A stretch of 32,167 nucleotides of DNA from a virus, in the IMG/VR virus record IMGVR_UViG_3300036719_001507, positions 1-32,167 of that record; one strand, given 5' to 3'. The position numbers and the translations under genes were made by a program. Each line of letters starts with the position of its first letter. Within the stretch, counting starts at the first letter, position 1. Shown here piece by piece: positions 1 through 32,167 of the stretch. The notes beneath the pieces are model-generated. The model saw only the letters and a list, made by a program, of their open reading frames with translations. It was not told the origin of the DNA and did no database searches.

Positions 1-247
1 CCGTTTCTGCCTTGTTGGCAAAAGCCATTTCGGGGTGGTTGGCGATGTCATACTCTGCGTAGAGCGCCGCTTGCCGGGCATCTGCTCGCGCCCAGCAACG
101 CTCCTTTGCCTCGCGCCAATAGTCGGCTGCAACACCCGCAGGCGGTTCGGTCAAGTCGCCAATTTCAAACCCCTCCTCGAGCCACGCTTCCCAAAAAGTG
201 CGTTCAATCCGCGGGCGGATGATGTCAAAGATTTCGGACAGGGTCAT
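1..247 (-). CDS. Hypothetical protein, 3' end cut by window edge
   Basis: This is the left copy of the 88-residue protein also found complete at 31392-31658. The ATG at 247-245 overlaps the stop of the RuvC-like gene (ATGA), so it is translationally coupled. The first 82 codons are present and the C-terminal residues fall outside the window. Compared with the complete copy there are 7 base changes but only one amino-acid change (Glu to Lys at about residue 34). The sequence is charged, rich in Trp, Glu and Arg, with no membrane segment. I do not recognise the family. Its place in the recombination/replication run suggests a nucleic-acid accessory role, which is inference only. Confidence 0.8.
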   Translation of the reverse strand, partial: MTLSEIFDIIRPRIERTFWEAWLEEGFEIGDLTEPPAGVAADYWREAKERCWARADARQAALYAEYDIANHPEMAFANKAET

Positions 248-449
248 TTGTTTTTCAGTTTGATTCCCGCCTCGAGGATGAGTAACGCATCGGCGGTTTT
301 CAGCGTTACGGACAGTTGCGGATATAGCGCCTGCGCCCGGCCTTTGAGATGCGCCTTCCAGCGCGGACCGTGCGTTTTCTTGTCACCGAGCCCGAGAGCG
401 GTTTGCCACTTCTTGGGCGGCAGATACTCAATCCTGGCACCGTACGCGG
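1..449. repeat. Left copy of terminal repeat (allele without the 101-codon gene)
   Basis: Bases 1-247 align without gaps to 31412-31658, and 248-449 align to 31966-32167. I count 17 substitutions (128, 140, 148, 152, 154, 170, 239, 262, 301, 310, 312, 313, 319, 325, 334, 337, 340). The first 127 and last 109 bases are identical. Nearly all differences are synonymous. This indicates the two contig ends represent the same locus, most simply a circular or terminally redundant genome assembled from two variants. A true tandem duplication in one genome remains possible. Confidence 0.9.
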
Positions 450-720
450 CAAGGATGCCCTCAATCCTGCCGTAATTGCGGAACATCGTTGCCATACTTG
501 AGCCAGACATCTTCCCAGCGAACTTCGGAAGTTCCTCCAGAAACACGATGGATGTCGGAAAAACCGGCCCAGCAGTTCGCGTGACAAGAATCTGGAACTG
601 CGTGTCGAGGTCGTGCAGCGTGTCCGGCATCGGTAGTGCATGGACACTGCCGTCGGTGTCGGTGTAGGCGATGCCGCCGCCCACGCCGGGGTCGATGGCA
701 ATAAAGTGTTGTTGGCTCAT
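244..720 (-). CDS. RuvC-like Holliday junction resolvase
   Basis: The 158-residue protein would resolve branched DNA made during phage recombination and replication, before packaging. It shows the RuvC/RNase H-fold layout: IDPG near the N-terminus (Asp10), a hydrophobic strand ending in FLEE (Glu62), a KKW motif around 103-105, and a C-terminal DALLI segment (Asp144). These are the expected metal-binding acids. RuvC proteins run about 160-175 residues, so length fits. The start at 720 is chosen because its ATG overlaps the upstream TGA (ATGA) and directly precedes the IDPG strand; the longer frame reaching to 969 would overlap two genes. A second, partial allele lies at 31962-32167. Calling it a resolvase rather than another RNase H-fold nuclease is family inference. 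Confidence 0.82.
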   Translation of the reverse strand: MSQQHFIAIDPGVGGGIAYTDTDGSVHALPMPDTLHDLDTQFQILVTRTAGPVFPTSIVFLEELPKFAGKMSGSSMATMFRNYGRIEGILAAYGARIEYLPPKKWQTALGLGDKKTHGPRWKAHLKGRAQALYPQLSVTLKTADALLILEAGIKLKNK

Positions 721-920
721 TTGGTCAGTCTTGCCCAAATACGGGCGAGCACGCTGTGGTTTTCGAGGTGATTCAGCGACTCTCGGAGGAGTCGCACGGA
801 CTCGCCTTGCCAGGCAATGATCTGCCGGGCGTCTGTTAATTTTGCGGAGGTTGCCCGGAACTTTGCGCGTTCGTCGCGCAGTTTGCGGCGAAGCTCCCAG
901 ATTTGTTTTTGCGCGCTCAT
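717..920 (-). CDS. Small coiled-coil protein
   Basis: The 67-residue protein is rich in Arg, Lys, Glu, Gln and Leu in heptad-like spacing over residues 4-55, so a helical coiled coil is likely. There is no membrane segment. It is coupled at both ends by ATGA overlaps, to the nuclease upstream and the RuvC-like gene downstream. This places it in the recombination cassette, possibly as a partner of one of those enzymes. No family is recognised. Confidence 0.72.
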   Translation of the reverse strand: MSAQKQIWELRRKLRDERAKFRATSAKLTDARQIIAWQGESVRLLRESLNHLENHSVLARIWARLTK

Positions 921-1906
921 TTGGTTGCAACAAGTGGAGCCTGCCCAATCTTCCGCTGCACCAGCTCATCCGGCAGCACCGCCCCCGCTGCGCTCCAGAG
1001 AGCTTGCGCCTTTTTGATGCTGATGGAGCCCTGAGCCCGGATCACGTCCCCAGCACCCAGCACTCCGTTTTGCACTGCCTGCGCGACGTGCTCGGCCTCG
1101 ACGTACTCGCTCGCACGCGGCTTTTGCAACCTCCAGCCTGGTACTCGCACACCAGCCTCGAGGAGCCCGCGAGCCTTTGCCTTTGCAGCATCTCGAAAGT
1201 CGTCGAGCGTCTGGCACGCTGCCAGAAACTGCCCGAGTCGGTCAGGGTCGTTAAGCAGCGCGAGGAATCCCTCGTCCTGTACGGTCGGAGCCAGTCCGGC
1301 AACGGTCACCAGCGCCTTGTCTTTGGTGGCGACACGAGCCGGACACGTCAGGCTTTTTGCACACCAGCCGCAGTAGTCATTTTCCACCGGCGCGGTGCCG
1401 ACGTTTGCGAGCACGCGCCTCACCAGCTCGTCTGCCGTGGTGTACGTCCAGCGGTGAGTGACAACCTGGCGTTGGTCGCAGAATAGAAGGTGCGTCGTCC
1501 ACTCGCCCACAAAGTGCTCCTGCATCAGGCCGAGCGCGTAGGCTGCCATTTGGGCTTGGTAGTCGTAGATTTGCCCTGATTTGAGGTCGATCAGAAACCG
1601 GCCTTTGATCGCTACGCCGTCAGCGGTGCCTCTGTGCTCGAGCCCGCCAGTGTGGATGCGGCAACGGTCCTCGTCTGTCACAAGGTCATGCGCTCCGCCC
1701 AGTTTGATGCACTGGTTAATGGCCCAGCGGATCGCGTCGGCGTCCTCCTCGGAAAGCTCCCAGTCGGGAAACTCGCCAGTAGTCCACGCGTGCCGAAATG
1801 CCGCGTCTAGTTTGCTCCCGCGCTCTGCTGCTGGACTGGTGCCCGGTGCGCCTTCGTACTGGCCGCACAAGGCCAGTTTAGGGAGTGATGAGTGTCGTAT
1901 TTTCAT
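917..1906 (-). CDS. PD-(D/E)XK exonuclease, RecB/Cas4-like
   Basis: The 329-residue protein carries the PD-(D/E)XK nuclease signature: GTADGVA with Asp96, then IDLK with Asp107 and Lys109, followed by an amphipathic YDYQAQMAAYALG helix (about 114-126) typical of RecB/AddB/Cas4-type nucleases. Cysteines at about 14, 179, 182 and 188 (CGWC then TC) match the pattern of Fe-S-binding Cas4/AddB relatives, though cluster binding is inferred. It probably resects double-strand ends for phage recombination with the nearby RuvC-like enzyme. The ATG at 1906 directly follows the TAA of the upstream gene, and its TGA overlaps the next ATG. The C-terminal 100 residues are not recognised. Confidence 0.83.
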   Translation of the reverse strand: MKIRHSSLPKLALCGQYEGAPGTSPAAERGSKLDAAFRHAWTTGEFPDWELSEEDADAIRWAINQCIKLGGAHDLVTDEDRCRIHTGGLEHRGTADGVAIKGRFLIDLKSGQIYDYQAQMAAYALGLMQEHFVGEWTTHLLFCDQRQVVTHRWTYTTADELVRRVLANVGTAPVENDYCGWCAKSLTCPARVATKDKALVTVAGLAPTVQDEGFLALLNDPDRLGQFLAACQTLDDFRDAAKAKARGLLEAGVRVPGWRLQKPRASEYVEAEHVAQAVQNGVLGAGDVIRAQGSISIKKAQALWSAAGAVLPDELVQRKIGQAPLVATK

Positions 1907-13920: not shown

Positions 13921-14591
13921 CAGCTTCCGTAAATTAAAACATCCCACTTGTTCGGCTTAGAAACAAGCCACTCAAGCGTCACGCGGAAGGTGCTGCCCTC
14001 CTGCACCGCAGTTGCGCCGGTTGCCAAAAAATTGACATCGTTCGGGAAGTTAAACGGATTCCCAGCAATGTCGTTGACGGCAAACCCAACGCCGCCAAGC
14101 GCCGGGGGCACCATGTACACTTTCTGGTGCTTCACGACGCAGCGCGGCGCAAGATAGTCCGTTTCGCCTCGGTTAAACCGCTCGTAAAGCGCCTGCACCA
14201 CTTGGTTCGTGGATGGCCCAGTGCCTGGAAATCCGTCGTTTGGATAGGTATTGTCGCCGGGCTCCTTGCCAGCTTTCCACGCCGCCCACTGGCTCATTTG
14301 TTGTGCAGTCATCCCTTCCTTGAAATACGGATTAGTTTCAATCGGCTCTGTCGTCGTGGACACGTCCAGGCTCCAGATGTCAGGATAAACCTGTCCACCG
14401 CCGCCGCCGCCGGGATCAGGAACCTCTTCGGTAAAAGTCTCCGTGAGCGTATACACCCCGTCCTCCTGCGTAAGCGTGTAGCTTGTTGCGCCAGTGTCCG
14501 GCGTCATGCTGGCAAAGTCCTGATAAACATTGGTCAGGTACTTGTTCCCACGGGCGTCCTTTCCCGTTTCTGTGCGAATTAAAGTGCTCAT
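13920..14591 (-). CDS. Distal tail protein, unrecognised
   Basis: The 223-residue protein follows the tape measure directly (ATGA overlap), the usual position of the distal tail (Dit-like) protein in siphophages. It has a beta-rich N-terminus, a PDPGGGGGG linker at about 58-67, and a C-terminal domain with VVKHQKVYMVPPALGG and FRVTLEWLVSKPNKWDVLIYG. The sequence does not let me assign Dit. It may link the tail tube to the fibre module. Confidence 0.62.
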   Translation of the reverse strand: MSTLIRTETGKDARGNKYLTNVYQDFASMTPDTGATSYTLTQEDGVYTLTETFTEEVPDPGGGGGGQVYPDIWSLDVSTTTEPIETNPYFKEGMTAQQMSQWAAWKAGKEPGDNTYPNDGFPGTGPSTNQVVQALYERFNRGETDYLAPRCVVKHQKVYMVPPALGGVGFAVNDIAGNPFNFPNDVNFLATGATAVQEGSTFRVTLEWLVSKPNKWDVLIYGS

Positions 14592-30656: not shown

Positions 30657-30819
30657 CGTCAGGGTCAAGTTCGTGTTCAAGTTTTGCCTCAAAAATTTGC
30701 AAGGCCCGCAGAAGGACTGCGTTTTCACGGTCCTCCTCGGGCCTCACAAGTCCCTCGGCTGCTGCCGCAGCCAGCCTTTCGGCCAACTGGACAGCCTCCC
30801 AGAGTTGTTCAGGATCCAT
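30589..30819 (-). CDS. Small hypothetical protein
   Basis: The 76-residue protein has an acidic helical N-terminus (MDPEQLWEAVQLAERLAAAAAE, in part) and an Arg-rich C-terminal tail (RRTSRPRHRIRPVSPRR). It shares one base with the SSB-like gene's stop (TAATG) and overlaps the primase start by 68 bases. The Arg-rich tail comes from the overlap region, where the primase frame dominates, so the real protein may rely on its N-terminus. Role unknown. Confidence 0.6.
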   Translation of the reverse strand: MDPEQLWEAVQLAERLAAAAAEGLVRPEEDRENAVLLRALQIFEAKLEHELDPDDERRTSRPRHRIRPVSPRRLGN

Positions 30820-31355
30820 TAAAACGGAATCTCGTCCGAATCCTGTTCAACGGTTGCCCGAACTGGCGCAGCCACCGCCGCCGCGGTTCGCGGCTCAAGG
30901 CAATCGTTGAAAAACGGCACTGGCACGATCTTGCTTTCGAGCCCTTCCATCACTGGCGCAATCGCGCCGATGTTGGCGAAGACTTTTCCTTTTGCGCTCA
31001 CCCCATGCTCAATGGTGATCTGCGCCCCGGCTCCAATCATGGTTTCCGTATCAAAACCTGAAATCGGAGGTTCACCACGCCAGGCTTTCAGAAACTGAAA
31101 GAGCGCCGACTTTTCGTGGAGGCTCAATTTGAACGGCTTTGAACGGACGATGAAAGGAACGCCCTGTTTGTCTTTCCAACCAAAGTAGAACCAGGTCAGA
31201 TCGACTGTTTCCGTTGTGGTTGGATCGTCAAACCGCGGACGCTGAACGCCGAACGCATCTTCAACTTCAATGCAAGTGGCGATGACTGTACCTTTGGGAG
31301 GAAGTCCTTCGAGTTTGATGCGGCTCTGTGATTTCGGTTGCTGTAGGATTGCCAT
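30819..31355 (-). CDS. SSB-like single-stranded DNA-binding protein
   Basis: The 178-residue protein ends in DSDEIPF, closely matching the acidic C-terminal tip of bacterial SSB that docks replication proteins. The body is beta-rich (VDLTWFYFGWKDKQGVPFIV, LSLHEKSALFQFLKAW), compatible with an OB fold, but no canonical SSB signature is present. It lies directly upstream of the primase-helicase. The start has an A/C-rich leader (ACACACACGATATG). Other phage families of unknown function share this gene position, so identity is inferred mainly from the tip and context. Confidence 0.72.
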   Translation of the reverse strand: MAILQQPKSQSRIKLEGLPPKGTVIATCIEVEDAFGVQRPRFDDPTTTETVDLTWFYFGWKDKQGVPFIVRSKPFKLSLHEKSALFQFLKAWRGEPPISGFDTETMIGAGAQITIEHGVSAKGKVFANIGAIAPVMEGLESKIVPVPFFNDCLEPRTAAAVAAPVRATVEQDSDEIPF

Positions 31356-31391: not shown

Positions 31392-31658
31392 TTAAAACGG
31401 ACGCTCACTAGCCGTTTCTGCCTTGTTGGCAAAAGCCATTTCGGGGTGGTTGGCGATGTCATACTCTGCGTAGAGCGCCGCTTGCCGGGCATCTGCTCGC
31501 GCCCAGCAACGCTCCTTTGCCTCGCGCCAATAGTCGGCGGCAACACCCGCGGGCGGTTTGGTTAGGTCGCCAATTTCAAAGCCCTCCTCGAGCCACGCTT
31601 CCCAAAAAGTGCGTTCAATCCGCGGGCGGATGATGTCAAAGATTTCGGAGAGGGTCAT
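31392..31658 (-). CDS. Hypothetical protein, complete copy of repeated gene
   Basis: The 88-residue protein is the complete version of the frame at 1-247. It begins MTLSEIFDIIRPRIERTFWEAWLEEG and ends ASERPF. The ATG at 31658 is preceded on the minus strand by the TAG of the 101-codon gene. Highly charged and probably helical. In both alleles it follows the resolvase (directly or via the 101-codon gene) and leads into the SSB-like gene. No family is recognised. Confidence 0.75.
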   Translation of the reverse strand: MTLSEIFDIIRPRIERTFWEAWLEEGFEIGDLTKPPAGVAADYWREAKERCWARADARQAALYAEYDIANHPEMAFANKAETASERPF

Positions 31659-31659
31659 T

Positions 31660-31965
31660 CTACGACAAATAAGGTTGCACAAACCAAGTGCCCTGGGACT
31701 TGAAGATTTCAAGTTTGTAAAGCCCCCCCATTTCTTGGCAATCCCCATTGAGCGCCATCGAATAGAGAGCCTTGGTTAGTTTTTTAAAAAGCAAGACATC
31801 TGGCACAATCCAAACTAGCGTTCGCCCAGCCAGGCAAAAACTGGCGTACAATGTAGGATTGCTTGACGACCCTTGACTCCACGGGTCTTCCACTCCGAGT
31901 CCAGTGAGGTATCCGTAGCAATGTTCTTCTTCTCCAATTATTGGAATTTGTGTCGCTGTGCTCAT
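31660..31965 (-). CDS. Hypothetical protein in the 307-base insertion
   Basis: The 101-residue frame fills the insertion that separates the two alleles. Its ATG (31965-31963) overlaps the resolvase stop by ATGA, and its TAG comes just before the next ATG. Beta-rich, it contains LYASFCLAGRTLVWIV and KLEIFKSQGTWFVQPYL. It has no obvious family. A gene that can be present or absent without disturbing coupling on either side looks like a moron-type accessory gene. Confidence 0.72.
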   Translation of the reverse strand: MSTATQIPIIGEEEHCYGYLTGLGVEDPWSQGSSSNPTLYASFCLAGRTLVWIVPDVLLFKKLTKALYSMALNGDCQEMGGLYKLEIFKSQGTWFVQPYLS

Positions 31966-32167
31966 TTGTTTTTCAGTTTAATTCCCGCCTCGAGGATGAG
32001 TAACGCATCGGCGGTTTTAAGCGTTACCGTGAGTTGTGGATACAGCGCCTGTGCGCGTCCTTTGAGATGCGCCTTCCAGCGCGGACCGTGCGTTTTCTTG
32101 TCACCGAGCCCGAGAGCGGTTTGCCACTTCTTGGGCGGCAGATACTCAATCCTGGCACCGTACGCGG
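31962..32167 (-). CDS. RuvC-like resolvase, second allele, 5' part outside window
   Basis: Only the C-terminal 68 codons are present, matching residues 91-158 of the gene at 244-720. Over this stretch there are 10 base changes but one amino-acid change (Ser137 to Thr). The catalytic-region Asp144 is retained. This is probably the second population allele rather than a second gene in the same genome. Confidence 0.75.
   Translation of the reverse strand, partial: AYGARIEYLPPKKWQTALGLGDKKTHGPRWKAHLKGRAQALYPQLTVTLKTADALLILEAGIKLKNK

Follow-up and report, generated by a model that had tools for sequence, protein, structure and literature searches.

A complete phage genome whose contig ends carry two versions of one locus, probably a one-gene slot beside a RuvC-like resolvase gene

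We analysed the 32,167-base stretch that makes up positions 1 to 32,167 of IMG/VR record IMGVR_UViG_3300036719_001507 (hereafter, the window), which is a complete tailed-phage genome. Its two ends are versions of the same locus, allele A on the left and allele B on the right, and both lie in a recombination module read from the minus strand. The features that concern us, in window coordinates, are as follows.

1–127, no strand: left copy of an exact 127-base end repeat, identical to 31412–31538, with the mismatch beginning at base 128; the branch k-mer
2–247, minus strand: 5' part of the allele A 88-codon gene, which continues at 31411 on the circle; its start and the RuvC-like stop overlap in ATGA
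244–720, minus strand: predicted RuvC-like Holliday junction resolvase of 158 codons, allele A, the anchor of the slot (PHROG 1770, E = 2.6e-19)
917–1906, minus strand: exonuclease of the same recombination module (PHROG 69, E = 3.5e-21)
30819–31355, minus strand: 178-codon gene, next in the module (PHROG 862, a family of unknown function)
31392–31658, minus strand: complete allele B 88-codon downstream gene, without a known family; 95% identical relative in contig G002
31412–31538, no strand: right copy of the exact 127-base repeat, at the end of a 31,411-base loop; contig G001 reads through it
31655–31659, no strand: TCATT at the downstream junction of the insert, present as a single copy at 244–248 in allele A
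31660–31965, minus strand: inserted 101-codon gene, allele B only, without a known family
31962–31966, no strand: TCATT at the upstream junction of the insert, from exact repeat comparison
31962–32167, minus strand: 3' part of the RuvC-like gene, allele B, cut by the contig end; its last 109 bases equal 341–449

The resolvase assignment is a prediction from the PHROG 1770 profile match. Alignment of the window ends paired positions 1–248 with 31412–31659 (7 substitutions) and 244–449 with 31962–32167 (10 substitutions), giving 17 in total. Fifteen of these are synonymous and two are nonsynonymous (E to K in the downstream gene and S to T in the RuvC-like gene), with a dN/dS between A and B of ~0.04. 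Allele B is the longer version by 307 bases, a figure that follows from the shared TCATT of 244–248 occurring twice in it. No other exact repeats of at least 40 bases were found in the window, so the end match is not a chance one. The first-pass annotation had described the ends as two versions separated by 17 substitutions and two amino-acid changes, which our realignment and codon comparison confirmed; its 307-base length difference, carrying a complete 101-codon gene with TCATT at each junction, held almost to the base. It had also proposed ATGA-type coupling on both sides of the insert, and here the letters agree but the reading frames do not. The insert gene starts within an ATGA overlap with the RuvC-like stop, but its own stop is a TAG one base ahead of the next ATG (TAG-A-ATG). 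At both edges of the insert, TCATT corresponds to the start-codon context seen from the opposite strand. Overlaps of the ATGA type are frequent across the whole genome in the list of open reading frames, so the 5-base repeats say little about any particular junction mechanism.

The two ends are identical for 127 bases from the left and for 109 bases at the right. Judged by the letters themselves, 127 exact bases followed by a split form the signature of a de Bruijn graph at a branching k-mer, with k = 127 read off the overlap. This signature, which is absent from the earlier description, explains where the contig ends. The right-hand match falls 18 bases short of 127, so branch B stops 18 bases before it could have rejoined; it would thus be a dead end in the graph, which suggests that allele B is the rarer one. 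Assembler scaffolds commonly overlap by the length of the largest k-mer, or by one base less, and assembly can halt where a circle is closed by two variant sequences (PMC7111523). Bubbles and mosaic variants have likewise been seen in phage assembly graphs (PMC10563150).

Similar ends recur among the 23 contigs of the group that we compared. Exact 127-base end repeats close G004, G016, G018 and G021, and shorter end overlaps close G014 and G019 (123 bases) and G007 (39 bases). Non-identical overlaps occur in 5 of the 23 contigs, the window and four others: G002 has an exact 127-base prefix, then one mismatch and 98 exact bases; G020 has 634 bases at 90% identity with an exact 127-base suffix (L115, L116); G015 has 863 bases at 93% (L105, L106); and the overlap of G003 is also non-identical. 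G020 and G015 are likely circles that were broken at strain variants. The other 11 contigs showed no clear end overlap. The clustering of substitutions between A and B is partly forced, since a graph branch opens only past k identical bases, and for this reason a short recombination tract behind the cluster is only suggested.

The graph also leaves room for an alternative that we regard as unlikely but worth serious attention, in which allele B comes from a different sister phage and was joined to this genome by the assembler through the shared 127-mer. The link between A and B consists of identical stretches of 127 and 109 bases at the two sides, which is all that the graph guarantees, so B may belong to a close sister strain; the B tract also has bases present in several other relatives. 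Against this, G002, the nearest carrier of the insert, differs by ~16% in the very 109-base stretch over which A and B are identical, so that, in this stretch at least, B lies much closer to A than known sister phages do.

Closure of the loop was seen in a separate contig. G001 (17,768 bases) shares 17,627 bases with the circularised allele A without a single difference, running across the join from window position 14391 through 31411 and 1 to 606, and it reads without a break from the resolvase as far as the 178-codon gene. It may stem from the same site or reads as the window. G002 and G003, opened elsewhere on the map, are also colinear with the window across the join. Together these contigs support a circular map, which circularly permuted linear DNA would fit equally. 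The circular genome of about 31.4–31.7 kb proposed in the first-pass annotation is therefore supported, with a closed allele A loop of 31,411 bases; with the insert, the genome would measure 31,718 bases. The population polymorphism it proposed at the closing point gained support as well: searching for relatives with and without the 101-codon gene recovered both states in separate contigs, with the gene present in G002 and missing from G001. All 20 differences of G001 fall in its last 141 bases (window 607–747 against L082 1–141), within the 5' half of the resolvase gene and the bases immediately upstream of it, which shows that the surroundings of this gene vary on both sides.

A physical duplication, either in tandem or as a long imperfect terminal repeat with diverged copies on one linear molecule, would account for both copies lying in a single contig with their reading frames kept and changes that are mostly synonymous. 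We rejected it as highly improbable because G001 carries just one copy where it crosses the join and shows no difference over 17,627 bases, and because of the 127-base signature: nothing would make a physical end fall exactly 127 bases ahead of the first mismatch, and relatives show this number again. G002 and G003 are also single-copy and colinear across the join. Flanking host DNA at the window ends is not supported.

We found five other members of the 101-codon family, on viral contigs only. G002 bears the gene at the same place with 78% protein identity, compared with 94–97% for the flanking genes. Between B and G002, the last 102 bases match at 100 of 102 positions (98%) and the first 204 at 146 (72%), a contrast indicating that the insert gene is itself mosaic. 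Its dN/dS between B and G002 is 0.43, ten times that of the A/B flanks, and its G+C content is lower (46.9% versus 57.7%). From these sequence comparisons, the gene has the look of a rapidly changing accessory gene. Sequence-profile searches of the protein gave no match in Pfam, PHROG or PDB. The AlphaFold model (mean pLDDT 79.5) predicts three strands, a helix and two strands, and Foldseek searches of it against PDB and BFVD returned nothing at an E value of 0.001. No relatives of the family were found in the annotated phage collection or in GTDB genome contigs. In one of the five other contigs (L096:682-1128), the family makes up the C-terminal domain of a longer, 148-codon protein that probably begins with a coiled coil, and the gene setting is a different one.

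To place the insert among relatives, we surveyed 63 resolvase-relative loci from viral contigs and scanned the slot genes against PHROGs. After exclusion of two loci with mis-framed calls (L046 and L058) and six that were cut or unclear, 55 loci could be classified. The exonuclease and the resolvase lie on one side of the slot; on the opposite side are annealing genes or other genes of the module. The slot is empty in 44 of the 55 loci, where the next gene encodes a RecT-type single-stranded-DNA-annealing protein (39 loci) or is of the 88-codon type (five loci). In the other 11 it is filled by one of four small-gene families: the 101-codon family (4), a 60–65-codon family (4), a 66-codon family (2) and a 70-codon gene (1). 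Filled and empty states need nine changes on the resolvase tree, and the four 101-codon carriers, which are interleaved with non-carriers, need four changes, no better than shuffled labels. Slot contents thus change independently of the resolvase.

Other exchanges were noted downstream of the resolvase. In L022, a Sak4-type protein stands in place of the RecT-type annealing gene, and its C-terminal stretch resembles that of RecT-type genes. Four loci (L029, L038, L039 and L040) have identical 88-codon-type neighbours despite widely differing resolvase genes, which suggests that the whole downstream block may have been exchanged at the resolvase.

The least probable explanation that we weighed, a small mobile element that duplicated 5 bases of its target, draws on the TCATT at both junctions and the lower G+C of the insert, but was rejected because the insert is a single gene without transposase or inverted ends, the TCATT repeat is start-codon context, the far junctions differ between carriers, relatives keep the same position beside the resolvase instead of showing scattered targets, and no copies with the same ends were found at unrelated sites in viral contigs, GTDB genome contigs or the annotated phage collection.

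The explanation we consider very probable is that the window consists of a closed 31,411-base phage loop followed by a branch from a strain variant, and that the variant locus is a one-gene slot whose content is exchanged by recombination. It starts from what was observed directly, namely the two versions, the k-mer signature, closure in an independent contig and slot contents that vary among relatives. The sample would have contained at least two haplotypes at one place. In haplotype A the RuvC-like gene leads directly into the 88-codon gene, and in haplotype B an extra 101-codon gene lies between them, accompanied by the 17 flanking substitutions. The assembly graph would split at a single 127-mer, so that the contig records the complete loop with A and then the unfinished branch with B, the latter presumably at low coverage. 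Over a longer time, small accessory genes would enter and leave the slot just past the stop codon of the RuvC-like gene by recombination. The simplest route of exchange would be homologous recombination, with the resolvase gene and the downstream gene as the two flanking regions of homology, and translation would stay coupled; an accessory function of the exchanged gene would fit this picture.

A further extension of this explanation, which we offer as an improbable speculation, is that the end of the resolvase gene, with its conserved sequence, and the AAATGA junction serve as a dedicated docking point at which the phages' own neighbouring recombination enzymes swap single accessory genes, with the 101-codon family being a host-interaction or anti-defence protein under balanced polymorphism.

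These results show the window, a contig classed as linear, to be a complete and circular phage genome; they also show that ends which overlap without being identical can be interpreted as strain polymorphism and need not be discarded. The slot also provides two natural genomes that differ by a single accessory gene, and the 101-codon genes represent an undescribed small protein family that is open to testing.

Gene-by-gene mosaicism in phages is a known kind of biology, and the contig ends are an assembly effect. Among isolates, the best-covering match of the terminase is Verrucomicrobia phage P8625 (24% identity over 94%), and terminase matches to isolates are at ~24% identity or less; at 32,894 bp the P8625 genome is similar in size, but too distant for host or genus assignment. 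The strain bubbles described with Phables and in the curation literature (PMC10563150, PMC7111523) show a circle, a one-k-mer branch and a contig stop, as seen here, with two variants that close the circle, as A and B probably do. Unlike in those strain bubbles, the branches here also differ by a whole gene and one of them is probably a dead end. In the single-gene mosaicism of mycobacteriophages (PMC3233612), small genes of unknown function are likewise exchanged at gene boundaries, whereas in the present case a single assembly contains both states, and the slot is linked to a RuvC-like gene within the recombination module.
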